Assembly (NCBI GenBank): GCA_928724745.1
Contig: CAKMXJ010000012.1
Location: forward strand, 124,001 to 188,000
Length of the DNA stretch: 64,000 nt
Direction of reading: 5' to 3'
Source: Anthracocystis setariae
Taxonomy: Eukaryota; Basidiomycota; Ustilaginomycetes; Ustilaginales; Ustilaginaceae
A model generated the notes under the pieces. It ran no database searches. It saw only the letters and a list, made by a program, of their open reading frames with translations, and was not told the origin of the DNA. The position numbers and the translations under genes are program-made. Every line of letters starts with the position of its first letter. The first letter of the stretch is position 1. Positions 48,626-64,000 of this stretch are shown here, in pieces.

Positions 48626-51600
48626 TCAACACGACTGCTGCTCCGTTCCTTCGACACGCTTCAATCGTGACAGTGCGTCGACGTTGGCGTGCAGCTTTCC
48701 CTGCTTGTACCTGAATTCGAGATTGCCCAAGAGAGGCATCAAGTACGCGCGCAGTCGCTCTATCCTCGGCGTGTACTGACGCTGGCTGTGTGAGGGCGAC
48801 CTGAGGACCGACGGCAGGGGAGCGTGATCGGTGATCACGACGATCTTCTCGGCGCCATCGAGATAATGCTGGAGGCGATGGAGGGCCCAGGCCAGACATG
48901 ATATCTCGAGCTCGATTGCCGGCATCTTCGACTCCGTTGCAGAGGTGGTAGTCGAGATGAAAGCAATCGGGCGTTCGACCAAGTCGTCGTCCTCGGCAGG
49001 ACCGGTTGAGTCAACGACCCGAGTGTGGCACTCTGGTGGTGGTGGTGTCGACACGTCCCTGAGCCGCCAGTGGTTGATGACCTCATCGCAATGTCCCTCG
49101 GCCAGATCGTCCGCAAACTCCCAAGTCGTGCGAGGGTCGTCCTTCCACTTCACGCGGTACTGGAGGTGACCGTGGCGAATGCGCTCCTCGACGATCCGCT
49201 CGACTTCGTACTCCGGCTCTGCTGTTGAGGAACGTGTTGCTACGACTGGTGTGGCCTCCAGTTGTCGACCAAAGGGGTCTGGTGTTGACGGGGCCATGTC
49301 AAGCTGAGACACGTCGAAGAGCGGGTCGACGTTGATGTCGGCCGGAAGATCGAGGCGGACGCGGTGGTTGGAGAGGACCTCGGCGATGGCGAAGGGACCG
49401 GCCTTGGCTGGGTCCAGCTTTGGGAAGCGTGACGACGCGAGGAGTGGTCGATCCTTCAGACGCACGAAGACTTTGTCTCCGACCTGGACCTTGGGCAGCG
49501 GGCGATGGCGACGGTTGTATGTCTTCTCATCGGTTGCCGCGCTGTTGAGAACTCGCTGCCATGCCGTCTCGACTCGCGCCTTGGCGATTGCCAACCTGTC
49601 CGTGTGTGACTGAGTCGATACTGAGGGAAGGACAGGTCGCTCCGGCCCGGCGATGTAGACCAGGTCGAAGGGGCGTTCGTTGGTGACGACGGATGGCGTG
49701 GTGTTGACCGCAAGTTCTGCCGCAGGCAGGTATGTCGTCCAGTCCTCGGGGTGGTCGATGGCCAGCGCGCGCAAGACTCGTTGCAGCGTCTGGATGTGTC
49801 GTTCCACCGGATTCGCCTGCTGGTGGTATGGAGCGGACGGCCGAAGCGTCGCTCCGATGGTGGTGGCAAACCTCTGTCCGACCTGACCAATGAAGCGCGC
49901 GTCTGAGTCTGACACGATTACTTCTGGTTTCCAACCTCGTTGTAGGACCATGGAGGTCAGCATGTCATAGAGGTTGGCGGCGGTGGCGTGGGAGGTGCAG
50001 GCTTGCGTCACCAGCATGCGCGAGAACAAGTCGACGACGACGAGGATGGCATCGAACCCGTGGCATACCGGCAGACCCAGCACCACGTCGATCGAGATGG
50101 TGTGGAAGGGGTAGGATGCCGCCATGGTGCGTTCGATGCTGTACTCGCCGGTGCGTCTGTCGAGCTTGGTTCGAAGGCAGGTCGGGCAGTTGTCGATGTA
50201 GGCCTGGAGGTGTTTGGCCAGGCGTGGGTGGTGATATTCCGCAAGACGGAGGAATGTCTTGTGGAAGGCGAAGTGGCCGTCGTCGTGATGCTTGACGAAC
50301 AGTTCCTTCATCTCCTCCACCGGCACGCAGAACTGCCGCAGTGTGCGCTTCGGACCAATGTGCACAAGTGTGTCGTCCTGAATCTCGTATCCGAGCTTCC
50401 CTTCGCCCCCCTCCAAAGCCAAGATGATAGGCTTCAGCGTCGGGTCGGCGCGCTGTCGGTCAAGGGCGGTTGATGTACCCGAGGTGACGCGACAAGCTGC
50501 TGCGCCGACGGGACGTGGTAACCTCTGATGCAGAGCGGCGGCGAAGGCCTGACCCGACGCATTGACGTAGAGGTAGAAGGGGCGAGAATAGTCGGGGAAA
50601 GCAAGGGTCGGAGGGGAGGACAACGACGACTTGAGCGACTCGAGGGCGGTGGCGTGGGAATCGTCCCATGCAAGCTTGACTTGGCTCGCGGATGTGCGTA
50701 AGTCGTCCTTGTCGACCAAGTGCCACTTCTCGCCGAACTTCTTGTACCGATGGCCCTTCAACAGCGAAGTCAATGGAGCAGCCATGGAGGCGTAGCCCGG
50801 AATGAAGTCGCGATAGTAGTTGAAGAGGCCAAGGACGTGGTACAGCTGCTGAAGGGTCGTTGGAGGTGCCAGCTCACGGACGGCAGCAGCTCGATCTTGG
50901 AGGATCGAGATGCCGTCGGTGGAGACCTGGCGACCCAGCAGCGACAAAGAAGAGATGGCGAAGTGACACTTTGACGGCGAGAATTTGAGACCTACACGCT
51001 TTGCTGCGGCTAGAAGCTTGTCGAGCGACTCCACATGTCGGTCCAGCGTCGGCGAGAAGACCACGACGTCGTCCAAGTATACCAGTGCCTCCGTCCAGCG
51101 CATGTTCCCGAGGAGCTGGTCCATGAAACGCTGGAAGAAGGACGGGGCGTTCTTGAGACCGAAAGGGATCCTCTTGTATTGGTAGAGGCCCTTGTGGCAG
51201 ACGAAGGCTGTCTTCCACCTATCCTCCTGATCGATGTCGATTTGGTGGTAGCCCCTGATGGCGTCCAGTCCTGAGAAGAACCGGTTGCCAGCGAGGGCTT
51301 CAAAGACATCATCGATCCGTGGTAGAGGATAGCGGTCGGGGACGGTCGACGTGTTGAGTCCTCGATAGTCGACACAGAACCGCCACTTTTGTCCTTGTCG
51401 GACAAGCAGCACGGGGTAGGAGACACTCGACGACGACGGTTCGATGACGTCCCAGTCGATGAGTTGGTCGAGCGTCTCTTCTATCACGTGGCGCTTGTCG
51501 GGGCTGACGCGACGTGGGGCCTCAGGCTTGAGCGTGTCGGACTCCCGGATGGGGATCTTCATCGCCGTGCCTGAGACTCGCCCAGGTTTGCCGTCCAGAG

Positions 51601-52957
51601 AGAAGGCGTCGATGTGGCGGCGCAGGACAGACACCACGGCCGAGTGAGGTTGGCCGGTGGCGTCGAGCCCGACATTGAAGACGTCGTCGACAAGTGTTGT
51701 CGACGAGTCGTCCAACCGAGGACGAGCCAGCTCGTCGTCGGCGAAGTCAAGGGGCTCGGCAGACAGATCGTGTGTGTCGCGCGCGAGGAAGGCGGAGGCG
51801 ATGTCGACAGGGGTCGAGTCGGCTGGTGCTTGCATGGAGAAGCTACCAGTCGACGTTGATAGATCATCGGGTCCCAGAGGGACGGCTTCTCCGAGGAGGA
51901 AACCTTCGCGGAGAGGATACGGTTGCGACCCCAGATTGGTGACCAGCACGTGTGTGGAGTGCTGGTCGATCACAGCCGACGGGAGAGTCAACTGTGTCCG
52001 GGAGTCGTCCGTCAACCAAGCCGCTGCTCTGATCGTATAGGAGAACGAGTCGGAGATGCGGTGTTCGACCGCCACCCAGACGTGTGACTGCGCTGGGATG
52101 GTGGTGGCCGACTTGGTGGCGACGGCGCGGTTGATGATCTTGGGCGTGAGAGCCCGACCCCTGATGTCGAAGACTGGGAACGACACGTTGTCGACCCACG
52201 CTCGTCCCGCTTGGACGTCGATGACCATCCCTGTTGAGTGGATGACGTCGAGGCCCAAGCAAATACCAGGCGCAAAATTCTTGACGACGTGGAAGTCGGT
52301 CGAAGAACAGAGCCGGATGGGGTCGTCGTCGTCACGTTGTCCTTGGATGCTGAAAGACAGCGTGACGAACCCCGACGAACGGTCGTTGCCAATGCCGTTG
52401 ATGGCGACGCCGGGTCCGTTCAGCGGTCTCAAACACAGTTCGTCAACCAGTGTGTCGTCGACAATGGACAGAGTGGATCCAGTGTCGACGAGGGACAGGC
52501 GTGGTTGCGAGCCGGCGAGGCTAACGAAGGCGGCGGTGGGGAGGTGACCGGCGTATGCCCGTCCCGATCCAGTCGCTTTGGCGCAGGGCAGCTCGACGTC
52601 GACAGCGTTAGGGTTGCTGTTTCGAGTCTTGCGCTCGATCGACAGAGTCATGAGACCCGGGTCGATCAAGAGCATGCTGGCGCCGGCGTCAGCGCTGGAC
52701 GGGTGCGAGGGGCTGATATCGACGGGAGATAGTGTGGCGGCGTCAAGGTGGGAGAAACGGCCAAGAGGCTGGGCGAGGTCGATGGGAGCTGAGGGATATT
52801 GTGGGTTGTTGGCGACGGCGGTGTGAGTGTCGCCGTTGCCCAGCTCGTGGAATGTGTCGACGACAAGGGCATGAGCCTGTCGGCAACTGGCAGTTCCACG
52901 GCGACACGCGTCACGACGACTGTTGTCTTCGTGACGGGGCGTGTCGTCACCATCTAG
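48626..52957 (-). CDS. pol: Ty3 Pol (PR-RT-RH[part]-INT-chromodomain-RH[part])
   Basis: The frame is open from the frameshift site at 52957. The first Met is at 52675, leaving about 95 trans-frame residues before it; the Met-initiated part is 1349 residues. Protease: LSLVDTGSTLSIVDD (about residue 62). RT: WRFCVDYRGLNTSTV to YLDDVVVFSPT (about 530). Then FPDYSRPFYLYVNASG, the start of RNase H (about 690-720), with Asn where the first catalytic Asp (TDAS) is usual. Integrase follows: HHDDGHFAFHKTF ... CPTC zinc site, SIDVVLGLP, VSDSDARFIG and NPVERHIQ as the D,D,E residues. A chromodomain (EYEVERIVEERIRHG to WEFADDL) lies at about 1150-1205. Residues 1233-1349 (VERPIAFIS, AIELEISCLAWALHRLQHYL, VVITDHAPL, NVDALSRL) are the missing remainder of RNase H. 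Confidence 0.93.
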   Translation of the reverse strand, partial: LDGDDTPRHEDNSRRDACRRGTASCRQAHALVVDTFHELGNGDTHTAVANNPQYPSAPIDLAQPLGRFSHLDAATLSPVDISPSHPSSADAGASMLLIDPGLMTLSIERKTRNSNPNAVDVELPCAKATGSGRAYAGHLPTAAFVSLAGSQPRLSLVDTGSTLSIVDDTLVDELCLRPLNGPGVAINGIGNDRSSGFVTLSFSIQGQRDDDDPIRLCSSTDFHVVKNFAPGICLGLDVIHSTGMVIDVQAGRAWVDNVSFPVFDIRGRALTPKIINRAVATKSATTIPAQSHVWVAVEHRISDSFSYTIRAAAWLTDDSRTQLTLPSAVIDQHSTHVLVTNLGSQPYPLREGFLLGEAVPLGPDDLSTSTGSFSMQAPADSTPVDIASAFLARDTHDLSAEPLDFADDELARPRLDDSSTTLVDDVFNVGLDATGQPHSAVVSVLRRHIDAFSLDGKPGRVSGTAMKIPIRESDTLKPEAPRRVSPDKRHVIEETLDQLIDWDVIEPSSSSVSYPVLLVRQGQKWRFCVDYRGLNTSTVPDRYPLPRIDDVFEALAGNRFFSGLDAIRGYHQIDIDQEDRWKTAFVCHKGLYQYKRIPFGLKNAPSFFQRFMDQLLGNMRWTEALVYLDDVVVFSPTLDRHVESLDKLLAAAKRVGLKFSPSKCHFAISSLSLLGRQVSTDGISILQDRAAAVRELAPPTTLQQLYHVLGLFNYYRDFIPGYASMAAPLTSLLKGHRYKKFGEKWHLVDKDDLRTSASQVKLAWDDSHATALESLKSSLSSPPTLAFPDYSRPFYLYVNASGQAFAAALHQRLPRPVGAAACRVTSGTSTALDRQRADPTLKPIILALEGGEGKLGYEIQDDTLVHIGPKRTLRQFCVPVEEMKELFVKHHDDGHFAFHKTFLRLAEYHHPRLAKHLQAYIDNCPTCLRTKLDRRTGEYSIERTMAASYPFHTISIDVVLGLPVCHGFDAILVVVDLFSRMLVTQACTSHATAANLYDMLTSMVLQRGWKPEVIVSDSDARFIGQVGQRFATTIGATLRPSAPYHQQANPVERHIQTLQRVLRALAIDHPEDWTTYLPAAELAVNTTPSVVTNERPFDLVYIAGPERPVLPSVSTQSHTDRLAIAKARVETAWQRVLNSAATDEKTYNRRHRPLPKVQVGDKVFVRLKDRPLLASSRFPKLDPAKAGPFAIAEVLSNHRVRLDLPADINVDPLFDVSQLDMAPSTPDPFGRQLEATPVVATRSSTAEPEYEVERIVEERIRHGHLQYRVKWKDDPRTTWEFADDLAEGHCDEVINHWRLRDVSTPPPPECHTRVVDSTGPAEDDDLVERPIAFISTTTSATESKMPAIELEISCLAWALHRLQHYLDGAEKIVVITDHAPLPSVLRSPSHSQRQYTPRIERLRAYLMPLLGNLEFRYKQGKLHANVDALSRLKRVEGTEQQSC

Positions 52958-52963
52958 TTTAAA
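52902..52963 (-). promoter_or_regulatory. Gag-Pol -1 ribosomal frameshift signal
   Basis: On the minus strand the gag frame reads TCT TTA AAC TAG, so the slippery heptamer T TTA AAC (52957-52963) directly abuts the gag stop. A 10-nt spacer (52947-52956) precedes a 45-nt hairpin (52902-52946). Its outer stem is CGACACGC/GCGTGTCG (8 bp), a CCC bulge follows, then a middle stem GTCACGA/TCGTGAC (7 bp), an A-G mismatch, an inner GAC/GTC and an AACA loop. After a -1 shift the next codon is CTA in the pol frame, which is then open to the end of Pol. Confidence 0.88.
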
Positions 52964-54543
52964 GACCTCGCGGTCTGGTCTTCCCCCGTCGAGGGGAATG
53001 TGTCGCGAGAACGATCGAGTGTCGACTCGCTCGACGACCCAAAGGAGAGGTCGGGACTAGGACTCTCGTCGTCGTCGATGGCGATGGGCTCTTCATTGAA
53101 GATGGGGTAGCCGTACGCTCGGACGAGTTCGAGTTCCGTCTGAGCGAGGTGCTGCATGTAGTGCGCCTCGGCCTTGACCCGTGTGGACACGTGGTCATGC
53201 TCGAAATCGAAGTGCTGTTGATGGCACTGTCGACAAGGGCGGCCGAGGTAGATGGTCTGCCCGGTGTGAGGCAGTTTGTATGCCCTCACTTGGCGACCAT
53301 CGCGCGACACAAACGACACGTTCTCGGGCCGGTACGTGTCAAACAGCGAGACGCCAGACGTCCTTGGAGCGGGGGACTGTCTGGATGGCTGAGGTCGAGC
53401 AGGCGCGACAGCGGATGTCGGCTGCTGGACCTCAGCGGCGTCGGTTTGAGTGACGACGACGGCTGGGGACACGAATGTTGACGACAACGACGGCGGAACC
53501 TTGAGCGGACAGCGGTGTGACGCTCTCCAGGACGCTTCGAACGCCTTCAGCTCGACCAACATGTCTTGCACGTTGGTGATCAGGCCCAGATGGGACCTGA
53601 TCAGGAGCTTGAAGCTGTCCGGAAGGCCCAGACGGATTTCCTTCGCGAGGTCGGCTTGCCTGCGGTCCGGGTAGGCCGAGCGAAGAAGGGCCAGCTTGCT
53701 GTAGAAGTACTGCTGGACAGTCTCGCTCTGCCACACCCATCGACGAGCGTCGGCAAGGGCTCGAGCCTCGCTGTCGTCTTGACGGAAGGCGACGCAGAGC
53801 GCCTCGTCCCAGGCGGACCAGCCGATGCTAAGACTCTGGCGAGCCTCGGACGACATCAGCTGGTACCACTGGGCGGCAGTACCACGGAGGCAGAGGGGCA
53901 GGGTTTCAATGATCGCCTGTTCCCATGCTGGCTCCGAGCGGCTCTGCACGAGGGCTCCAACGCGGCCTCGGAAGAACTCCAGGTTGTCTGGGGAGCCGTC
54001 GTAGAGACCAATGTCGTCAGGCTTGACGGTTGGCCGACGAGCACCACCAGACGTGTCAACAGCAGCATCGTGCGTCCAATGGTCGTTCTGTTGGTGTTGC
54101 TGCTGTCGTCCCGAAGCCTCCGCGTCGTGTCGATCGACAGGTCTGTCGGGCTGGCGAGGTGACGATGGGTGGTGGCGACCGCTCTCGCGAAGTAGACGGG
54201 CCAGCATGATGGTGTGCTGCTGCGCCGTGTCTGCCTGCTGTTGCAGAGCGACTCTGTTCGCCTCCGCCTGCTGCTGCATCGCCTGCTGGAACGACTGCTG
54301 CATGGCCAGAAGCATCTGAGCCAGCAGAGTCGACGAGTCGGACGACTGCGAGTCACCGGCAGTTTGAGCTGCCCTCGCAGCCTCGTCGGATCCCGACTGA
54401 GACGGCGAGTGTGACTCCTGGTAGGGCGGAGCGGCAGGGGCGAGGTCGGAAGGCGAGGCGCCGCCACGGCAAGTGGTTGGGGTCATCGTCGGGCCAGCCG
54501 GACAGACCGAGAGAGAGAAGAGGTTGCTGGACACAGGGATCAA
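52954..54543 (-). CDS. gag: Ty3 Gag
   Basis: 529 residues. A Gln-rich coiled stretch (MLLAMQQSFQQAMQQQAEANR) precedes the capsid-like region: IGLYDGSPDNLEFFRGRVGALV, LPLCLRGTAAQWYQL, SLSIGWSAWDEALCVAFRQ, VWQSETVQQYFYSKLALLR and IRLGLPDSFKLLIRS. These are typical of fungal Ty3 gag (retrotrans_gag). A C-X2-C-X3-H-X4-H motif (CRQCHQQHFDFEH) near residue 435 takes the place of the usual CCHC knuckle. The stop TAG lies immediately after the slippery heptamer. Confidence 0.88.
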   Translation of the reverse strand: MIPVSSNLFSLSVCPAGPTMTPTTCRGGASPSDLAPAAPPYQESHSPSQSGSDEAARAAQTAGDSQSSDSSTLLAQMLLAMQQSFQQAMQQQAEANRVALQQQADTAQQHTIMLARLLRESGRHHPSSPRQPDRPVDRHDAEASGRQQQHQQNDHWTHDAAVDTSGGARRPTVKPDDIGLYDGSPDNLEFFRGRVGALVQSRSEPAWEQAIIETLPLCLRGTAAQWYQLMSSEARQSLSIGWSAWDEALCVAFRQDDSEARALADARRWVWQSETVQQYFYSKLALLRSAYPDRRQADLAKEIRLGLPDSFKLLIRSHLGLITNVQDMLVELKAFEASWRASHRCPLKVPPSLSSTFVSPAVVVTQTDAAEVQQPTSAVAPARPQPSRQSPAPRTSGVSLFDTYRPENVSFVSRDGRQVRAYKLPHTGQTIYLGRPCRQCHQQHFDFEHDHVSTRVKAEAHYMQHLAQTELELVRAYGYPIFNEEPIAIDDDESPSPDLSFGSSSESTLDRSRDTFPSTGEDQTARSLN

Positions 54544-54725
54544 TGTCGTGAAGGCAGGTCGACGCTCAAGATGATCGTTCGCCGACGATCAACCGCCACA
54601 CGTGGACGTTCCCGGCTTGCGAAGCCTAGGGGCGCTTGCACACGATACCCCAGTTCCAAGGGTCGTGTAGTCGTGTTGCCCTCGGTAAACGGACAGCTGC
54701 ACAGCGACTGACTCTGTGCAGCGAG
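54544..54725 (-). other. Ty3 leader upstream of gag
   Basis: Between the gag start and the copia insertion. It should contain the primer-binding site and perhaps the LTR end; I could not match a primer tRNA. A CAGCTGCACAGCGACTGACTCTGTGCAGC imperfect inverted repeat near 54692-54721 (written here only to show arms CTGCACAG/CTGTGCAG) is visible next to the insertion point. Confidence 0.4.
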
Positions 54726-54730
54726 GGGGC
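54726..54730. repeat. Target-site duplication (left copy, GGGGC)
   Basis: GGGGC directly precedes the TG of the left copia LTR and is repeated at 62628-62632 after the CA of the right LTR. Confidence 0.9.
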
Positions 54731-55529
54731 TGTGAAATAATAGCAAATGAGAAATGGCGACCTTACGGCAAAGCCAAGAATAAGTAGTTAATTATGGCTT
54801 TTGAGCGCGACTTACGGAAGTAGGCGTCGGGTGATCAATCCCGACGTCGGGTTCTGACAAACTGCGGGTTTGTTAGAATCCCGGAAGTCTTAGGATATCC
54901 GAACGTTATCTTTGTTGTTATTCCAAAGATCCACGTCGGGTTTCGTACGCTCACGTCGTCTTCGCAGAGGTAGGAAGCTTGAACGATAAATACTATAAGT
55001 ACTTTGATGACTACTCGACGAGTTGTCGGAGAGAAGGTATGGTAAGAGTAAATTGGGGAAAGATTCGATACATTCCAAAGACACTAAACGAGTCATGACA
55101 AAGAGGCGTTTATATACATGTTGAGTCCACGATGATGCTTCCTTGTGTTCGCACTGAACGTTCCTTGATGGATGTTATGGTGTCTATAGCGTGGTCCCTT
55201 TACTTGGTCGTTGACACCAGTCTTTCGCTGTGGGGTCTACCTTCTGGCCATATTGAGGGGGAATCCGCGCTTTCTATTCGAGTACGCATCCGGAAACATT
55301 AAACCCCGACCGCGGGTTTTGAGACGATGTTTCGGACCTCCTGTCTTGAATCGTGTGTCTTGGGAACGTGTGTGAGTTTCGGTTGGTTTTGTGAATACTC
55401 CGTGGTTGTCCAAATCCGGTAAATAAAACGCAAACCCGCATGCGTGTTACAAAACCCGACGGCGGGTTTATTGTCGAAGGGTGAAATGCTCCAAGTGTGA
55501 GACGACAAAATGGAACCCGTGTTCCAACA
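54731..55529 (-). repeat. Copia 3' LTR (799 bp)
   Basis: Starts TGTGAAATAATAGC and ends GTTCCAACA on the plus strand. It matches 61829-62627 at a constant offset of 7098. Differences seen: 54809 G/61907 A, 54846 G/61944 A, 55077 A/62175 G. A TATATAAA box for minus-strand transcription lies at 55109-55116. Three CCG-N4-CGG palindromes lie at 54840, 55305 and 55455. A 68-codon frame spanning 54890-55096 is carried by both LTRs and is probably not a gene. Confidence 0.96.
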
Positions 55530-55538
55530 GTCCCCCTC
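55530..55538 (-). other. Polypurine tract
   Basis: The minus strand reads GAGGGGGAC immediately before the TGTTGG start of the 3' LTR, the expected plus-strand primer position. Confidence 0.85.
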
Positions 55539-55610
55539 GTTGAGCACTTCACACACTTCACGCACACATTGATTATTGTTATGGAATGAAATGGGATTTT
55601 ACGACGGGTC

Positions 55611-57227
55611 TTAAGGACCCGAAGTACCGGAACCAGTTGCTTGGACATACCTATTGCGCGGGCCGGGTGCTTCGCGCTTGTCGACGAACTCCTCGATTTG
55701 ACCCAGGATCTTGATGAAGTACGAGGGATCCCACTTCTTTGGAGGTGGTTTCCCAGTACGTGTAGCGACGAGTGTGTCGATGCAGATCTCCTTGGCTTCG
55801 GAGAGTTTGCCACGGAGACTGTCGACGAGGGCAATCTTTTGCGTCCTCTTGCCCTCGTACCCCAACCCTCGGCAGGGTTTCGAGATGATCATGCAATGAT
55901 CACAAGACCCGCGGGCGGGGTCTCGCTTCTTGCCTTGATGGTTCACTCCGGCGCCGAATGAGCAGTGCACTCCGATGAGTTGGCACTCTCGGCAGCCGGG
56001 TTCCATTACCACGAGGTCGGGATGGTGAGGTTCATCCAGCCGAGCGAAGTGTCGTCGTAAACTGAGCACTACGCCGGCTGGGACAACAAACCGCTTTTGC
56101 TTCGACAATGGAACCCCCGGAGTGAGAGCCCCCGACCATGCCAGGTGCGAGGGAAGGGGGTGTTCCAAAGATCCGCCGGCGGGTTGTATTTCGTCGGCCT
56201 CGAAGTTTGCTTCTGAGGCCGCGACCGCGGTGGCAGCGGCACCGACGACTCGTTGGCGGTGAGGGAGCATGGTCGCCTCAACGAGTTCGATTGCCCGGGC
56301 GGGGGCGTTGGTAACGCGTGCGCGTGCGCTCGTTCCTCGCCCTTCGTCTTGATCCTCGTCGTAACGTCGGAAAGTTGGGTCGTCCTCGTAATCGCCATCG
56401 GCGAGGGAGTCGTCGGAGTGGAGGAAGAGTGGTCTTGCTTCCGGTGATCCTTCCTCTTCAGGGACTGAAGTAGATGGCCTCAACGCAGGGAGGGGTCTTC
56501 TGCGGAGGCGAAGAGTACGACTAGCCTCTCGGGGCGCGGTCGAAGGTGGAGAGGTCTTGCCGCCTGCGTTGGCGACGATGATACCGCCGGTCTGACGGGA
56601 CACGGCGACTCGTGGTGACGGAGAGGCAGGTGGTTCGCTGATGCTGAGACCACCTGAGGGAGGATCGACGGCCATGTCATCCGCGACGGGTGGCCGAGTG
56701 CTTGATGTGAGCGAGCTCTCGTTCGTTGGAACTGAGTGCTGCTCGTCGAGATCCATGGCCTCGTCTTGACCCTGTGCAGGGGAGGCTAAGTTGTCGCTGT
56801 TGTTGTCGCCGTTGTTGGTGGGGGGGAGGTTGGTGTTGCTGGCGACGTTGACGACGGAGGTGTTGTTTGTGTTGCTGGAGGGGGGTGAGGGTGCATTCTT
56901 CCTTCGCCTGGCCTCGTTGGCCTTGGCGAGGGCGTCCTTCTTCGCCTGGGAGAGTCGTTTTCCCATCGTTTCTTGAGGAATGGAGTTGGTGGTGTTGAGG
57001 TTGATGTCGGTAGGAGTGGTCAAGTCGGTTCTTATAAGCAACGTAAGTGCTTTGTCTTTGTTTCGATCCGCTTCTTTGGTTCTTAGGGGTGTAAAGCTTT
57101 GTTCGGCATGTTCCGAGGGTGGCGCAGTGTGAGGCGAAGGCCCGACGTCGGGTCTTATGACCCGATAGAGAGTCTTGTCGGATGCGCCGCGTTTCATCTC
57201 GGTGGATGTGATTGCGCAATGTGACAT
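55611..57227 (-). CDS. Copia-borne accessory ORF with Zn2Cys6-like cysteine cluster
   Basis: 538 residues from the first Met (57227). A second plausible start, MGKRLSQAKKDALAKANEARRRKN, is at 56966 (residue 88). The middle is Pro/Ser/Asp-rich and disordered. At residues 412-452 lies C-X2-C-X6-C (CRECQLIGVHC), 19 residues, then C-X2-C-X6-C (CDHCMIISKPC), with basic residues (GKKRDP) in the loop. A helical, coiled-coil-like stretch follows (KIALVDSLRGKLSEAKEICID) and then a short C-terminal part. Spacing matches the fungal Zn2Cys6 binuclear cluster except for the longer loop, part of which (DPARGS) is encoded by one of the element's palindromes at 55908-55919. It may be a DNA-binding protein or a nucleocapsid-like factor. 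It lies where env-like ORFs occur, but no membrane helix is seen. Confidence 0.75.
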   Translation of the reverse strand: MSHCAITSTEMKRGASDKTLYRVIRPDVGPSPHTAPPSEHAEQSFTPLRTKEADRNKDKALTLLIRTDLTTPTDINLNTTNSIPQETMGKRLSQAKKDALAKANEARRRKNAPSPPSSNTNNTSVVNVASNTNLPPTNNGDNNSDNLASPAQGQDEAMDLDEQHSVPTNESSLTSSTRPPVADDMAVDPPSGGLSISEPPASPSPRVAVSRQTGGIIVANAGGKTSPPSTAPREASRTLRLRRRPLPALRPSTSVPEEEGSPEARPLFLHSDDSLADGDYEDDPTFRRYDEDQDEGRGTSARARVTNAPARAIELVEATMLPHRQRVVGAAATAVAASEANFEADEIQPAGGSLEHPLPSHLAWSGALTPGVPLSKQKRFVVPAGVVLSLRRHFARLDEPHHPDLVVMEPGCRECQLIGVHCSFGAGVNHQGKKRDPARGSCDHCMIISKPCRGLGYEGKRTQKIALVDSLRGKLSEAKEICIDTLVATRTGKPPPKKWDPSYFIKILGQIEEFVDKREAPGPRNRYVQATGSGTSGP

Positions 57228-57516
57228 ATGAGTGACTATGGTGTTAGTGGTAATTTACTTGTAATTTTTGGTTGTCCAGTCTTAAGTTCCGAGGTTTCGT
57301 GCTGAATACAAAATCCCGACGTCGGGGTCTGTTATCCGGTGGGTATTGCTGTATATTGGGTCGCGTGTTCATGCAGGGTCCAATTTTTTGTTGGCTTTTA
57401 TTGTTAATTTTCGTGTTGTTTTTGTGTTTTTGGTGTTTTTCGCGTCGAATCGTGGGTGTGCATATACGGATCTTGATGATTAATCAATGGAAAAGGAAAC
57501 CCGTCGTCGGGTTTTC

Positions 57517-60500
57517 TTAGTTCGTGGGAAGTATGTGAAGGTTCTCGCGGTTGGCTTGAACCTTGTTCTTTTCCAATGCCTTAGTTAGAATGTCTGCCAG
57601 TTGGTTCGTTGTCGAGACTGGCTTTACGATCAGTAATCCATCTGCTTGGTATGATCGGGTAATGTGATACTTGAGGCGAAAATGTTTGGTTCGGTTATGG
57701 AATTTGGGTTCCTTGGCGAGTTCAATGGCCGCGCGATTATCCACCATCAGTTGCGTCGGGTTCTTGACTTTTAGGCCGAGTTCTTCGACCAGCCATCGGC
57801 ACCACGTAATTTCCTTTGCTGCTTCAGCCATAGCTACGTATTCAGCGTACGTTGTAGAGTCCGTGATGATGGACTGTAGCTTAGAAATCCAGCTGTATGG
57901 CATAGTGTTGATCGTATTAACAATTCCCGACGTTGATCTCGAAGTCAGTGTGTCCCCCGCGTGATCTGCGTCGGTGAATGTTTGAAATAGGGACCCGAAA
58001 TCAAGGTTTACGTCGTGAATTGGAAACCCGATGGCGGGTTTATATTCCAGACCGTGGGTTTCTGTTCCCTTGAGGTAACGTAGTAGATGCTTTGCCTGAA
58101 CCATGGCATTAGAGTGCGGGCTTGCAAGTTCGCGGCTGAGTCTCTGCACGGCGTAGCTGATGTCCGGCCGCGTGCATGTTGCAATGTAAAGAATTTGACC
58201 AACGATGCTCCTATACTTGGAATGTTCTGATGAGGAGAGGAGGTCCCCTTCTGCTATGTTGGCACTCGGGTTGAGCGGAGTGTGTACGATGTTGGCAGAT
58301 TCGAGCCCGTAAGTCAGGAGGAGCCGTCGGATGTAGCTGGTTTGGGACAAGTGTATGGAGTCCGGCGATTGTTTCACTTGAATGCCTAGAATGTAGTCAA
58401 GCTGTTCTCCACCCGTCATCTTGAAGTGCTTCCTGAGGTCGTTCATCACGCTTTCGGCGAGGGGTTTAGAGCGAGCAAAGATAAGAATGTCATCCACGTA
58501 AAGTGTGAGGACGAGCGGGTGAGTCTCGGACCCCGACGTCGGGTTTTTGATGTAGAGCGCGGAATCGTGGTTACTGCGCTTGAAACCCATTCCCCGCAAA
58601 GTTGAGTCTGCTTTCTGGTACCAAGTACGACCAGCTTGCTTGAGACCGTACAATGACTTGTTTAGCTTGCAAAGTAGACCCGGGGTGTGAGGATCTGCGT
58701 CGGGTTCGCGAGGCGGTGGTCGCATGTATATATCTTTGTCGATTTCACCATTGAGGTAGGCGGTCTTGACATCCATTTGGTAGATAGTCAATCCAATCTG
58801 TAGACTTAGTATCATGAGCAGACGGAGTGTCGCAAGCTTCACGACGGGTGCGAAGGTCTCGTCGTAATCTATGCCGTGTTTTTGTGCGAATCCTTGTGCT
58901 ACCAAGCGAGCCTTGTACTTGTCAATTGTTCCATCGCTTTTTCGCTTGATCTTGAAGACCCATCGACTTCCGATGACGTTTGCGTCCTTCGGGGGGGTCA
59001 CAAGATTCCAGGTGTTGTTGTTCTTGTGCGACGCAAGTTCTCTATTTACTGCCTGTTTCCACAATTCCCAGTCGGGTCTTCGGAAAGCCTGAGTGATTGT
59101 TCGTGGTTCGTCGTCGAGTAGCCCGATTGGGTCCGAATCGTCCAATCCCGACGTCGGGTTTTCGACCCCGTCGGTTTCTTCGAGAGCTGCGAGCGCGTCC
59201 AGGCGTGGTGAACTTGGTGGCGATCCAGGTGGAGTCTGGATCCCTGCCGCTCTCTCTTCGGGAGTAAGGTAAGGCCAGCTAGTAAGGTTTTCTCTTGTTT
59301 CTTGTCGAAGTTCGGTATTTTGGTCATTTGACTGAGGGGGAATATTGATTTCCTTCGTCGTTGTGTCAATTCTGGGCGGGTTCGCGAACCCGACGTCGGG
59401 TTTTGCAAACCGCACTGAACTTTCGGTATCATACGAGAAGGGGAAAGTCCCTTCGTCGAATGTTGCGTGGACCGTCGTAATGTATCGATCTTCGGCTACG
59501 TTATATAACTTGAAGGCCTTCGTCCCTGCAGCGATGCCGACGTAGACACATGCCAGTGCGCGGGGTTCCAATTTGTCCCTTCTTTCTTCCGGAACGTGTG
59601 CCCATGCAGCACATCCGAACGTTCGAGCGAGGGAGAAGTCAGGTGTAATGGAACGCAACAGTTGGGTCGGGATCTTCATCCCGGCGCCCTTCGTTGGGAA
59701 TCGGTTATTGAGGTAGACCGCGTGGAGGAAAGCGTCTCCCCACATATGATACGGTGAGGATGATTGGATCATCATGCAGCGAGCTAGGTCGAACAGGGTG
59801 CGATTCATTCGTTCTGCAACCCCGTTCTGTTCTGGCGTGTATGGAGCGGTGTGTTCGTGGATGATCCCATTTCCCCGAAGTAGCTCTGCAAGTTCTTTAC
59901 TCGTGTATTCGCCTCCGTTGTCCGACCTGATTCTTTTGATCGATTGGCCGGTTTGCTTCTCCATCATAGTTTTGTATTCCAGGAAGTGGCCATACACTTC
60001 ACTCTTCCTCGTGAGTAGGAAAGCGACGGTGAATCTTGAGAAATCGTCGATGAATGTGACAGCGTAGCGGTGGCCTTGAGGAGTTTCGTCGGGCATTGGA
60101 CCCACGACGTCGGTATGTACAAGTTCCAGGGGTTTTGTGGAACCCGACGTCGGGTTTCGAGAGAACGCCTGTTTGTGCGACTTTCCGATCTGGCATGTCT
60201 CACACTTCGCGGGTGTACGTGGGTTGAGAGTCACTTGAGGAACGACCTTCGCAATCTCTTCCAGACGTGCTTGACCAGGGTGGCCGAGGCGTTTATGCCA
60301 GTTCGTGGTGTTGGCCTCGTGTTCGGCCGCCATTCCGGCAAAGTCGGTGCCGACTTGGTCGACATACGTGAGGGGTCCAATATGGACACCTCTGCATGTA
60401 ATTCTGCCGTCTGTCGTTCGGGCGATGGTTTCACGATCGTTTGTAACTATTTCCACCTTCTTCCTCATCACTCCTGTGGAGAGAAGGTTGACGCCGAAGG

Positions 60501-61824
60501 ATGGTATGTAAGCCACGTTCGACAGTGTGATCTTGTTCGTTTTTCCTTGTCCGATGTTGACTTCGAGGTCCACTGTGCCGAGTCCTTCGATTTTGACCGG
60601 AACTTCGTTTGCTACCCAGATGGGTCGCATTGACACGTCGAGTTTGAGATCCCGGAATAGAGTCTTGTTACAACAGATGTGTCGACTGGCACCCGAGTCC
60701 ATTAGCCACATTGTTGATCGCGGGTGTGTGAACTCACTGGCGGAGTAGACGTTATCACGCCCGGGTTCACCAGTTTTGGTGTTCGGTTGAGAACCCGACG
60801 TCGGGTTCTTGGGTTTCGGGCATTTGTTCGCGTAGTGCCCCTTTTCTTGGCAATTGAAACAAGTAATCTTCTCGATCGGCGTTTTCGGCTTCGCCTTGGG
60901 GTTTCGCTTCGGGTTTCGTTGACCCTTCCGTTTGTTTTCTTGTCCGGCGTAGTATGCCGATGACCCGACCCGGGTTCGTTGGTGCATGCCCTGAACGTTG
61001 ATACCGAGGCGCAATTCCTCGCTTCGCAGGCGAGTAACGATGTTGTCGAGCTCGACCTTCTCGTTAATGACGGCACTCTCGACAACCAGGGTCTCGACTT
61101 CGTTGTCGCCCCTTCGGACGATCATTTCGCTTGTCTCTCGGCGTGCTCGGTAGGTCTCCTCGATTTGTGCTCGGATGTTATCATATTCCTTGCGGAGGCC
61201 CTTCATTAGTACGCTGTACTTCTTGTTGAAGCTAATTGTAACGCCTGCCATGGTCAGCTGGTCTGACAGTTCGGTGATTCGGCTGACGAATCCGTCGATG
61301 GTTCGTCTATCTTGCTTGAGACTGTTGAGCTCCGTCTCCATTTCCTCGAGTTGCCATTTCATGGCTTTAGCGAACCGTTCTTCGAGGGTTTTCCAGATTG
61401 TGTGCGCGTCTTCGAGGTCCGCGATAGTGTGTTTGATTTCGCTTGAGAGACTGCTTCGTAGCATGCCGCAGGCGGTAAAGTTGGCGTTAATCCACTCTCC
61501 GTACTTGGGGTCAGAGGCTTCAGGCCGGGGTAGAGTCCCCTTGATGATTCCATAGATTCGAGCACCCTTTTGCATAATAATGTCGATGCATTGGTCCTTC
61601 CATTGGTAATAGTCGCGTGCCTGTGTCAATTTCGGCAATCCGGGGGAATTATGCGGGACCCCGTCGATGGATTGCATGATTTCTTCAGTGTATTCGGAAC
61701 CCGTCGTCGGGTTCGGTAAATTTCTTTCGGGGTTTTCGTGTTCTCCGGTGATCGAATCGACTCGAGAGCGGGATCGAGTATTCAAGTATATATCGTTCGA
61801 GTTTCCAGCAGGCGTTGGGCTCAT
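57517..61824 (-). CDS. gag-pol: Copia Gag-Pol polyprotein
   Basis: 1435 residues in one uninterrupted frame. Gag lies at about 1-330 with the UBN2-type core (MQKGARIYGIIKGTLPRP, WKTLEERFAKAMKWQLEE) and a CCHC knuckle CFNCQEKGHYANKC (about 318-331). Protease: MDSGASRHICC (about 375). Integrase: HKRLGHPGQ ... CETCQIGKSHK zinc site, HTDVVGPMPDE, RSDNGGEY and EQNGVAERMNRT as D,D,E. RT: GSRWVFKIKRKSDG, IYQMDVKTAYLNGEID, LYGLKQAGRTWYQ and LYVDDILIF. RNase H: TDADHAGD, TTYAEYVAMAEAAKEI and ADILTKALEK. All catalytic motifs are present, so the element may be competent. In-frame peptides NPTSGS, NPTTGS, NPTSGL, KPDVGF and KPAIGF mark palindrome copies at about residues 38, 340, 557, 808, 889, 1094 and 1262. 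Confidence 0.97.
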   Translation of the reverse strand: MSPTPAGNSNDIYLNTRSRSRVDSITGEHENPERNLPNPTTGSEYTEEIMQSIDGVPHNSPGLPKLTQARDYYQWKDQCIDIIMQKGARIYGIIKGTLPRPEASDPKYGEWINANFTACGMLRSSLSSEIKHTIADLEDAHTIWKTLEERFAKAMKWQLEEMETELNSLKQDRRTIDGFVSRITELSDQLTMAGVTISFNKKYSVLMKGLRKEYDNIRAQIEETYRARRETSEMIVRRGDNEVETLVVESAVINEKVELDNIVTRLRSEELRLGINVQGMHQRTRVGSSAYYAGQENKRKGQRNPKRNPKAKPKTPIEKITCFNCQEKGHYANKCPKPKNPTSGSQPNTKTGEPGRDNVYSASEFTHPRSTMWLMDSGASRHICCNKTLFRDLKLDVSMRPIWVANEVPVKIEGLGTVDLEVNIGQGKTNKITLSNVAYIPSFGVNLLSTGVMRKKVEIVTNDRETIARTTDGRITCRGVHIGPLTYVDQVGTDFAGMAAEHEANTTNWHKRLGHPGQARLEEIAKVVPQVTLNPRTPAKCETCQIGKSHKQAFSRNPTSGSTKPLELVHTDVVGPMPDETPQGHRYAVTFIDDFSRFTVAFLLTRKSEVYGHFLEYKTMMEKQTGQSIKRIRSDNGGEYTSKELAELLRGNGIIHEHTAPYTPEQNGVAERMNRTLFDLARCMMIQSSSPYHMWGDAFLHAVYLNNRFPTKGAGMKIPTQLLRSITPDFSLARTFGCAAWAHVPEERRDKLEPRALACVYVGIAAGTKAFKLYNVAEDRYITTVHATFDEGTFPFSYDTESSVRFAKPDVGFANPPRIDTTTKEINIPPQSNDQNTELRQETRENLTSWPYLTPEERAAGIQTPPGSPPSSPRLDALAALEETDGVENPTSGLDDSDPIGLLDDEPRTITQAFRRPDWELWKQAVNRELASHKNNNTWNLVTPPKDANVIGSRWVFKIKRKSDGTIDKYKARLVAQGFAQKHGIDYDETFAPVVKLATLRLLMILSLQIGLTIYQMDVKTAYLNGEIDKDIYMRPPPREPDADPHTPGLLCKLNKSLYGLKQAGRTWYQKADSTLRGMGFKRSNHDSALYIKNPTSGSETHPLVLTLYVDDILIFARSKPLAESVMNDLRKHFKMTGGEQLDYILGIQVKQSPDSIHLSQTSYIRRLLLTYGLESANIVHTPLNPSANIAEGDLLSSSEHSKYRSIVGQILYIATCTRPDISYAVQRLSRELASPHSNAMVQAKHLLRYLKGTETHGLEYKPAIGFPIHDVNLDFGSLFQTFTDADHAGDTLTSRSTSGIVNTINTMPYSWISKLQSIITDSTTYAEYVAMAEAAKEITWCRWLVEELGLKVKNPTQLMVDNRAAIELAKEPKFHNRTKHFRLKYHITRSYQADGLLIVKPVSTTNQLADILTKALEKNKVQANRENLHILPTN

Positions 61825-61828
61825 AACC
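61811..61828 (-). other. Primer-binding site (half tRNA-iMet type) overlapping the start codon
   Basis: Directly after the 5' LTR the minus strand reads GGTTATGAGCCCAACGCC. GGTTATGAGCCC is complementary to the anticodon stem-loop of initiator tRNA-Met (GGGCTCATAACC), as in Drosophila copia, which is primed by a 5' half of that tRNA. The ATG inside it is the start codon of Gag-Pol (61822-61824). Confidence 0.8.
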
Positions 61829-62627
61829 TGTGAAATAATAGCAAATGAGAAATGGCGACCTTACGGCAAAGCCAAGAATAAGTAGTTAATTATGGCTTTT
61901 GAGCGCAACTTACGGAAGTAGGCGTCGGGTGATCAATCCCGACATCGGGTTCTGACAAACTGCGGGTTTGTTAGAATCCCGGAAGTCTTAGGATATCCGA
62001 ACGTTATCTTTGTTGTTATTCCAAAGATCCACGTCGGGTTTCGTACGCTCACGTCGTCTTCGCAGAGGTAGGAAGCTTGAACGATAAATACTATAAGTAC
62101 TTTGATGACTACTCGACGAGTTGTCGGAGAGAAGGTATGGTAAGAGTAAATTGGGGAAAGATTCGATACATTCCGAAGACACTAAACGAGTCATGACAAA
62201 GAGGCGTTTATATACATGTTGAGTCCACGATGATGCTTCCTTGTGTTCGCACTGAACGTTCCTTGATGGATGTTATGGTGTCTATAGCGTGGTCCCTTTA
62301 CTTGGTCGTTGACACCAGTCTTTCGCTGTGGGGTCTACCTTCTGGCCATATTGAGGGGGAATCCGCGCTTTCTATTCGAGTACGCATCCGGAAACATTAA
62401 ACCCCGACCGCGGGTTTTGAGACGATGTTTCGGACCTCCTGTCTTGAATCGTGTGTCTTGGGAACGTGTGTGAGTTTCGGTTGGTTTTGTGAATACTCCG
62501 TGGTTGTCCAAATCCGGTAAATAAAACGCAAACCCGCATGCGTGTTACAAAACCCGACGGCGGGTTTATTGTCGAAGGGTGAAATGCTCCAAGTGTGAGA
62601 CGACAAAATGGAACCCGTGTTCCAACA
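61829..62627 (-). repeat. Copia 5' LTR (799 bp)
   Basis: Partner of 54731-55529, with a TATATAAA box at 62207-62214 and palindromes at 61938, 62403 and 62553. Two of the three LTR differences sit at CpG positions, compatible with deamination of methylated C. Confidence 0.96.
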
Positions 62628-62632
62628 GGGGC
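62628..62632. repeat. Target-site duplication (right copy, GGGGC)
   Basis: Follows the CA end of the right LTR and equals 54726-54730. Confidence 0.9.
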
Positions 62633-63080
62633 CCTCAGCTGTGGAGGGTTGTTGGAGTTCGGGGCTCTAACCCTAGGCCGTGCTGCCCGTGTGAACGAAA
62701 CACCAGAGAGCGGCCAACTCTCCTGGGATACGGGGGCCCTTGTCGGAAAAGGGTTGCCGTCTCACTGTCAGGACGTGCACCTGATCAGTGAGTGTTTTTA
62801 ACGCCCGGGATCAATTCAGGTGCTGCGACAGGCAAGCCGTAGCCGCAGAAGAGCCTCGTCAGCGAGTAACTGCGAGTATGGAGCCGGTGTTGGGCCAGCG
62901 GAGATGACTAGGGGCCAACCGAAGGAGAAGGGATCGTGAAGACGTTGAGGGGAAGAGGTCGCGGCGGCGAAATGCGCGGCGGCGACGAGAAGACGATGTC
63001 GAGCTGCGCGGTGGTATTGGAAGTCGACTGCGTCAAGGGGCGACCTTGACGGTAGGCAGCCAGGTACGATGAGTCTATCG
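62633..63080. other. Interrupted 5' part of the Ty3 element (probable LTR or leader)
   Basis: Once the copia element is removed, this sequence joins 54730. It lies upstream of the Ty3 gag, so it should contain the Ty3 5' LTR. A 90-codon minus frame (62816-63088) has no recognisable content. LTR boundaries were not resolved. Confidence 0.4.
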
Positions 63081-63729
63081 TCTGCCAAAGATACTATAAC
63101 AAGTAGCTAAGTCGCTATAGACCTCACACTGGTGGATGGGCGTATAGGGCTGGCTCTGTTGTTATGTCAGGCCAGTTAGATCCGTAACCAAGAGTGGGCG
63201 GTGACGTTAGGCAGCAGGCACGAAGGGGAGAGACCTATGTCGATACAACAGTAACGACGTCGGTAAGGATCTGTAAGTAGCAGGCGTTATGATACGGAGA
63301 AGTTGGTAATGAATCGATTAAGGGATCATCAACTGTGCGCTCGAAGTACGCCCTATAAATACACTTAGTCCCCTACACCGTTGTTGCCCGTAGCGGTGTA
63401 GGGAACCCCATAGCGTCGACGTTAGTGACAAGATTCTACGCTAAGTGTAAACAACAGTTGATCATCAACATAAACAACGATGTTGACAATAACATGACCC
63501 GACGAGTAACATCCCGGTCAGAGATGTGATGAGGCACCATGTCAACGTCACGTGGGAACGCACAGTGCCAGCATTGGCATTGGCACGCGCATAGTTTCCC
63601 CGCTGCCGAGTCCCGAGGAATTGTATTGTCGGCAACTATGTCGGAATATCACCGCCCTAGTTATGGACATACCGACGTCTGTAGTGTCACATCGATAGCT
63701 GACGCAGCAGGTGACCATATATTTCAACA
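63081..63729 (-). repeat. Probable LTR of a second copia-like element (left boundary approximate)
   Basis: The right end TTTCAACA followed by GTCCCCTTCATC parallels the first element's TTCCAACA followed by GTCCCCCTCGTT, meaning an LTR end plus a polypurine tract in the same orientation. A TATAAATA stretch occurs near 63353. The left end, perhaps TGCCAAAG at 63081, is a guess. Confidence 0.4.
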
Positions 63730-64000
63730 GTCCCCTTCATCTGCTAAGTCATTGAGGCCATCGACCATGATATGAGACATATACAAACCTCACACGCATA
63801 GCTGTGTTTAAGTGATCGCACTTGAATTTGCTAGAGAGCAAGCGATCAGGGAACTTGAAGAGACTACTATAGACACTAGCGCCAGCGCTAAGTTACTACA
63901 GTGAGCGGAAGGACCGGAACGAGACATCGAGAACTACCTGAATGAAGTTGAGACCTATTGCGCCGAAAGGGAAAGAGGCCGTTAATAGAACGGCGATGAC
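63730..64000 (-). mobile_element. 3' end of the internal region of a second copia-like element (runs off the window)
   Basis: Begins with a minus-strand polypurine tract GAAGGGGAC next to the LTR. No reading frame of note remains in the 271 bp visible. Confidence 0.35.

Follow-up and report, generated by a model that had tools for sequence, protein, structure and literature searches.

Why would a retrotransposon carry the same short palindrome again and again, inside its protein-coding sequence as well as in its long terminal repeats (LTRs)? The question is raised by a 64,000-nucleotide stretch of the Anthracocystis setariae genome (assembly GCA_928724745.1, contig CAKMXJ010000012.1, positions 124,001 to 188,000), here called the window, in which positions 54731-62627 of the minus strand are occupied by a complete Ty1/copia element with CCG-N4-CGG palindromes dispersed along it. 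We favour, with moderate confidence, the interpretation that these palindromes are family-specific operators for a homodimeric protein encoded by the accessory open reading frame (ORF) of the element itself, ORF2. The evidence comes from sister families in the same genome, which carry other palindromic words partly at the same positions, and from the conservation of ORF2.

Palindromic words and positions in three copia families

In the window, CCG-N4-CGG was matched 38 times, against a mean of 22.2 and a largest value of 34 in 100 dinucleotide shuffles, and 19 of the 38 matches fall inside the copia element. The longer form CCCG-N4-CGGG is present 17 times in the element, whereas in 20 shuffles no gapped palindrome of this size was counted more than 5 times, and 20 sites match AACCCG-N4-CGGGTT with ≤2 mismatches. 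The palindromes described by the original prediction, which was made from this sequence by eye and with a list of ORFs, are real, and its count of 18 lies between our 17 and 19. Its distribution of three sites per LTR, two between ORFs and seven in gag-pol was recovered, whereas the three assigned to the accessory-ORF frame are weaker: those at 55906 and 56170 each deviate from the full half-sites at 2 positions, and that at 57139, with 3 mismatches and an exact core, lies upstream of the likely ORF2 start codon. One further LTR site (55433 and 62531), with one arm position altered, had not been listed. The statement that the outer CCG and CGG are always kept was partly circular because the sites had been selected by those same letters, and exceptions such as CCCA and CAGG occur in LTR relatives. 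In the whole genome (21.5 Mb), the exact 12-mer is found 138 times and its reversed control 4 times. The loose form CCCG-N4-CGGG gave 554 matches against 239 for its reversed control, and hence has a sizeable genomic background that the exact 12-mer lacks.

A genome-wide search for gag-pol relatives, in which 33 of 155 candidates were scored, returned 14 copies at 95-100% identity and 19 at 65-67%. The latter form two families, L031/L034 (family 2) and L032/L035 with L033/L036 (family 3), and L038 is a diverged member of the window's own family (family 1). No CCG-N4-CGG array was present in either sister family. Repeat finding and an unguided gapped-palindrome scan both revealed dispersed AACAYTC-N6-GARTGTT in the L031 family and dispersed AACACGC-N6-GCGTGTT in the L032/L033 family. 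The de novo scan gave one dominant gapped palindrome per family, namely CCCG-N4 (17 copies), AACA-N12 (13 copies) and CACGC-N6 (12 copies in L032 and 7 in L033), with at most 2-5 copies in shuffled controls, and none above shuffles in the neighbouring gypsy element or in two host stretches.

Counts of motifs 1/2/3 at ≤2 mismatches, with LTR sites counted twice where the set included both LTRs, were 20/2/0 in the window element, 17/0/0 in L038, 0/15/4 in the L031 family, 0/9/15 in L032 and 0/8/13 in L033, and 0/0/0 in both the gypsy neighbour and the distant copia element L037. Cross-matches of motifs 2 and 3 originate from the resemblance between these two motifs. Exact half-site pairs were found genome-wide 100 times for motif 2 and 68 times for motif 3, with 0 for either reversed control. 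On the contigs with full motif listings (C1-C11, and C12 up to 183147), all 10 listed gag-pol copies contain the exact motif of their own family and lack the other two. The Leu3-type arrangement CCG-N4-CGG is therefore a property of family 1 only, CCCG-N4-CGGG-type sites at ≤2 mismatches numbering 0 in L031, L032 and L033. A decayed family-1 piece, L044 on C27, retains a few weakened sites.

Although the words differ, their positions partly coincide. Gag-pol alignment columns 609.7, 946.7 and 1151.7 (window 60144, 59148 and 58533) hold palindromes in the window element, L031, L032 and L033 alike, with no length change between families, and palindromes of the four elements lie near one another around columns 76-78, 378-384, 861-872 and 1320-1327. 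With coincidence defined as a distance within 3 alignment columns and significance taken from 10000 random placements, 4 of the window's 9 gag-pol sites (two of which are weak, with 3 mismatches each) coincide with L032 sites, where 0.28 were expected and 0 of 10000 placements did as well. The comparison of the window with L031 gave 3 of 9 (64/10000), and 5 of 11 L031 sites coincide with L032 sites (1/10000). L032 and L033, which are close relatives, share all 8 sites. Judged from these alignments, the site positions are older than the words, and the words appear to have been rewritten family by family. Shared columns with different words are the strongest argument for replacement in place and against mobile insertion.

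Copies of families 1 and 3 are found in dense mixed clusters (C32:636-689 kb, C36:431-465 kb, C15:1.6-42 kb) and also at the ends of contigs C6, C8, C11, C36 and C2, and these clusters may be centromeric or subtelomeric; family 2 copies, unlike them, are scattered.

The accessory protein ORF2

All three motif-bearing families encode ORF2 homologues downstream of gag-pol, with 33-35% identity over the aligned length. Searches of the genome listed about 19 copies of the window type plus fragments, 8 of the L035 type and 14 of the L034 type. Six cysteines (C325, C328, C335, C355, C358 and C365) in the pattern C-x2-C-x6-C-linker-C-x2-C-x6-C are invariant in four aligned proteins, as are G-x-G-x-N-H in the linker and R-G-x-G after the last cysteine, and a probable helix follows the cluster. 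In 14 ORF2 sequences the six cysteines are present without exception, while the linker has exceptions within the window's family, at N-H in L022 and L038. The 19-residue linker is longer than the usual Zn2Cys6 linker.

ORF2 is under purifying selection. Among 45 pairs of 10 window-family copies, the proportions of nonsynonymous and synonymous differences (pN and pS, uncorrected, with some pairs saturated) were 0.107 and 0.591; pN reached or exceeded pS in 1 pair, and no positive selection was seen in this set. Family-fixed differences partly cluster in the first C-x2-C-x6-C loop, which reads E-C-x-L-I-G-V in the window family, P-C-E-T-R-R-I in L034 and P-C-V-E-A-G-V in L035, and this loop would be the natural place for specificity.

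Profile comparison (hhalign) of 15 ORF2 clusters with 5 host Zn2Cys6 domains gave a probability of 82 and a score of 33.3, with cysteine aligned to cysteine, whereas the maximum score in 40 cysteine-keeping shuffles was 21.2. The similarity thus extends beyond cysteine spacing, as measured on these five host domains. Whole ORF2 matched no Pfam family at E≤1. No ORF2 homologue at E≤0.01 was found in a protein collection whose fungal share is not established (7992, 246 and 441 candidates scored), and three matches by sequence in the PDB (E 0.12-0.19) were taken as chance.

A distant ORF2 type, that of L037, is represented by 16 copies among the matches of the ORF2 searches, shows about 37% identity in the cluster and keeps the pattern C-x2-C-x6-C ... 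C-x2-C-x6-C. Two further six-cysteine frames were noticed. On C20, L045:2362-2934 (-) encodes an ORF2-like frame that lies outside any recognised LTR element and is about 36% identical to both families, and L010:2214-2846 (+) on C10 encodes a different frame of 211 aa with C-x2-C-x6-C ... C-x2-C-x6-C just outside an LTR, which is perhaps the accessory ORF of yet another element.

Proposed operators for ORF2 and rival explanations

According to our model, ORF2, through its diverged Zn2Cys6-type cluster and the probable helix, would bind the palindromes of its own family as a homodimer, with each half-site read by one subunit. Sites in the LTRs, in the spacer between ORF1 and ORF2 and in gag-pol would let ORF2 mark its own family from end to end. 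LTR-only sites would suit a transcription activator; the additional sites across gag-pol point to coverage of the entire element. Protein and sites would have diverged together, giving the half-sites AACCCG, AACAYTC and AACACGC, and the likeliest output, by analogy with the plant VANC proteins discussed below, would be that bound ORF2 maintains transcription of the element or protects it from silencing chromatin.

How the sites vary bears on what might read them. Among 18 LTR lineages from 30 LTRs (copies ≥98.5% identical merged), mean diversity was 0.118 in half-sites, 0.170 in centres and 0.187 in flanks, and the CCCG/CGGG core was less variable than both centre and flank at 3 of 4 LTR sites. 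L032 and L033 differ at 6 of 70 half-site positions, 11 of 30 centre positions and 482 of 4193 positions in the rest of gag-pol (half-site versus centre, p = 0.0013; centre versus rest, p = 0.0003). The slower change of half-sites than of spacers, which the original prediction had made a check of its claim, is thus seen within family 3 and at most LTR sites, and it does not hold against every reference sequence, as given below. Of 141 deviating arm pairs from 111 distinct site sequences, 3 were Watson-Crick with both sides changed, 2 more were G-T, again with both changed, and 99 were broken on one side, although the mismatch limit of 2-3 in the scan weakens this test by biasing it against double changes. 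The half-site letters, rather than mere pairing, are kept, as expected for double-stranded recognition.

One alternative to our model would be hairpins or kissing loops in RNA or single-strand DNA, serving packaging, dimerisation or strand transfer and family-specific to avoid mixing. Each site can form a stem of 6-7 bp with a loop of 4-6 nt that is free to vary, and family specificity would suit co-packaging; however, arm changes are almost never compensated, which disfavours an RNA hairpin, and letters beyond those that pairing requires are kept across sites. We consider such structures decidedly unlikely. The sites might also belong to a host transcription factor, Leu3-like or another Zn2Cys6 protein, or a bZIP protein on the ACGT centre, exploited for transcription of the element. 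CCG-N4-CGG is the geometry of Leu3, host Zn2Cys6 genes are many (85 of 97 Zn_clus matches above the cut-off), and sites are present in the LTRs. Yet three sister families in one host carry three different half-sites at shared positions, exact sites are found mainly within the elements, seven sites lie deep in gag-pol, far from the LTR promoter, and the ACGT centre is not kept; a host factor is therefore unlikely. The hint at Leu3 and Zn2Cys6 in the original prediction was apt in so far as the accessory ORF of the element encodes a Zn2Cys6-like cluster, but a Leu3-like site is not general, since the half-sites of the sister families are AACAYTC and AACACGC, separated by centres of 6 bp.

Two further explanations concern movement. 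If ORF2 on resident copies tethered the integration complex, new copies would be drawn into clusters, and families 1 and 3 do lie close together in several clusters, and also near contig ends. Family 2, however, is scattered despite the same arrangement of ORF2 and palindromes, and the clusters may merely reflect survival in centromere-like regions, so that we hold tethering to be improbable. A mini-palindrome that spread within the element was one of the two readings offered by the original prediction, and near-identical words of 12-16 bp at scattered places, several of them in protein-coding linkers, recall such a process. The test proposed there was a search for empty sites, and none was found at the three exactly aligned gag-pol positions, where homologous codons of the sister families hold another palindrome of equal length. 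Moreover, different positions and arms decay by single substitutions. A mobile mini-palindrome is very improbable, and we rejected it, whereas the other reading, that the sites are selected as putative binding sites, gained support.

Several observations weigh against operators read by ORF2. The Pfam Zn_clus model (PF00172) scored 13.7, 9.6 and 12.4 bits for ORF2, below its cut-off of 21 bits, ORF2 loci are absent among the 97 Zn_clus matches of the genome, the cysteine cluster is C-terminal, and an AlphaFold model from a single sequence reached a pLDDT of 36, too low to be of use. Because the profile score exceeds shuffles while the Pfam scores stay below the cut-off, we read ORF2 as a diverged Zn2Cys6-type protein, of which membership in the family is not proven. 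As for the sites, the core of the LTR site at 54838 varies more than the highly conserved sequence flanking it (0.096 versus 0.025), half-sites of L032 and L033 change no more slowly than the rest of gag-pol (p = 0.57), and the gag-pol comparison of the window with L038 lacks power (half-sites 3/84, centres 1/28, rest 253/4232). Motifs 2 and 3 are similar enough to match each other's sites. In the distant L037 family the palindrome signal is marginal, CGAC with spacer 0 reaching 5 copies against a shuffle maximum of 4; its 7-mers CGACGTC (16) and GTCGGTA (12) exceed a shuffle maximum of 10, but CGAC-rich 7-mers reach 18 in the gypsy control, and its 9-mer CCGACGTCG occurs 7 times against 3 in shuffles. 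Either the L037 motif is not palindromic, or it is shorter, or the link between ORF2 and motif is not general. With only three motif-bearing families, this link rests on few independent events.

Architecture, neighbourhood and comparison with known systems

Assignment of the window element to Ty1/copia follows from its LTRs of 799 bp each, its short target duplication and the order of its Pfam domains, with integrase (rve, 556-657) ahead of copia-type reverse transcriptase (RVT_2, 929-1177, E 2e-67). Coordinates are collected in the table. The gag start codon lies within GGTTATGAGCCC at 61822-61828, immediately after the 5′ LTR, a stretch with presumed complementarity to the anticodon region of initiator tRNA-Met, and the protein start M-S-P of gag is common to the three sister families and L037.

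Table. Features of the copia element in the window (positions count from the first letter of the window)
Feature	Position	Strand	Remarks
Target-site duplication GGGGC, left copy	54726..54730	.	Same five letters recur at 62628-62632
3′ LTR, TG...CA	54731..55529	-	
Palindrome, 3′ LTR site 1	54838..54853	.	
Palindrome, 3′ LTR site 2	55303..55318	.	
Palindrome, 3′ LTR site 3	55433..55448	.	AACCCGCATGCGTGTT, one mismatch; not in earlier list
Palindrome, 3′ LTR site 4	55453..55468	.	
Accessory ORF2, 451 aa, downstream of pol; putative palindrome reader	55611..56966	-	C-terminal C-x2-C-x6-C-x19-C-x2-C-x6-C and probable helix; ORF, conservation, purifying selection, Zn2Cys6 link
Weak palindrome in ORF2	55864..55879	.	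2 mismatches; may be chance
Weak palindrome in ORF2	55906..55921	.	2 mismatches; may be chance
Weak palindrome in ORF2	56170..56185	.	2 mismatches; may be chance
Palindrome upstream of ORF2 start	57139..57154	.	Exact 12-bp core
Palindrome between ORFs	57313..57328	.	Exact 12-bp core
Palindrome between ORFs	57498..57513	.	
gag-pol, single open frame: gag, zinc knuckle, integrase, copia-type reverse transcriptase	57517..61824	-	ORF; Pfam Retrotran_gag_2, zf-CCHC, rve, RVT_2
gag-pol palindrome	58025..58040	.	Sister families' own palindrome ~7 alignment columns off
gag-pol palindrome in reverse transcriptase domain	58530..58545	.	Sister families' own palindrome centred on same codon position
gag-pol palindrome between integrase and reverse transcriptase	59145..59160	.	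Sister families' own palindrome, same codon position
gag-pol palindrome, linker of integrase and reverse transcriptase	59387..59402	.	
gag-pol palindrome just before integrase core	60141..60156	.	Sister families' own palindrome, same codon position
gag-pol palindrome after zinc knuckle	60792..60807	.	
Palindrome near gag start	61698..61713	.	
5′ LTR, TG...CA	61829..62627	-	
Palindrome, 5′ LTR site 1	61936..61951	.	
Palindrome, 5′ LTR site 2	62401..62416	.	
Palindrome, 5′ LTR site 3	62531..62546	.	One mismatch
Palindrome, 5′ LTR site 4	62551..62566	.	
Target-site duplication GGGGC, right copy	62628..62632	.	

The gag-pol sequences of the window element and L038 differ at 6% of bases, far less than do ORF2 and the U3 region of the LTR, and synonymous divergence of ORF2 among window-family copies reaches 0.75. 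The element therefore gives the impression of a mosaic in which gag-pol is young and the ORF2 and U3 modules are old. To its left, a gypsy-type element with long minus-strand frames (48626-54588) ends just before the copia element and contains, as recognised by eye, a reverse transcriptase, an integrase and a chromodomain-like C-terminus. To its right, from 62633 to 64000 and beyond, it is adjoined by another copia family, that of L037 (C12:187600-195600), which has the distant ORF2.

Gal4-type factors of PF00172, such as Leu3 with its everted CCG-N4-CGG, bind palindromic targets. ORF2 resembles them in its six cysteines in two C-x2-C-x6-C halves, the probable helix that follows and the palindromic form of the putative target, which in family 1 is CCG-N4-CGG itself; it differs in the 19-residue linker with G-x-G-x-N-H, the C-terminal cluster and the sub-threshold Pfam score, and families 2 and 3 have no CCG/CGG triplets. 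TnpA of the maize En/Spm transposon recognises a short motif repeated within En/Spm and influences expression and methylation of this element, but En/Spm is a DNA transposon with subterminal repeats and TnpA is an unrelated protein.

The closest parallel is found in the VANC proteins of Arabidopsis VANDAL (MULE) transposons. According to the available portion of one report (Hosaka et al. 2017, PMC5735166), these transposon-encoded proteins remove silencing from motif-dense elements, and related members recognise different short motifs, YAGTATTAY for VANC21 and AGTTGTCC/AC for VANC6, each dense in its own family. Here too, the motif is dense in its own family and rare elsewhere, the element encodes a protein, and three ORF2 clades go with three motifs, so that protein and motif change together in both systems. 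However, VANDALs as described in that portion are plant DNA transposons whose motifs lie mainly in non-coding DNA, share one orientation and have multiplied through tandem repeats, whereas the present element is a fungal LTR retrotransposon with palindromic sites at conserved positions, also in coding sequence, and with a zinc-cluster-like protein for which anti-silencing would hold by analogy. ORF2 does not belong to VANC proper: its carrier is a copia element and not a MULE DNA transposon, and no VANC-like Pfam match was obtained. Extra ORFs downstream of pol, of env-like, DEDDy and GDSL types, occur in LTR retrotransposons of bdelloid rotifers, and they share with ORF2 a family-specific place at the env position; the words 'zinc' and 'DNA-binding' are absent from the portion of that paper available (PMC5408684). 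Among the matches listed in literature titles and abstract openings, there was no retrotransposon-encoded Zn2Cys6 protein and no dispersed copia palindromes.

Taken further, these data may point to a co-diversifying self-recognition code, in which the zinc-cluster protein of each copia family and its palindromic addresses at fixed places, coding sequence included, would be rewritten in place upon a shift of specificity, a VANC-type system of anti-silencing or activation that fungal class I elements would have evolved on their own out of a Zn2Cys6 factor. We regard this wider proposal as evenly poised between right and wrong. If it holds, fungal retrotransposons would join plant DNA transposons as elements capable of sequence-specific self-recognition, here through a new type of protein, and retrotransposon coding sequence would have been shaped by DNA operator sites. 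Three related zinc-cluster domains, each with a known target word, would form a natural series, and how a DNA-binding protein shifts its specificity when dozens of sites must shift too would become a question testable with short oligonucleotides.

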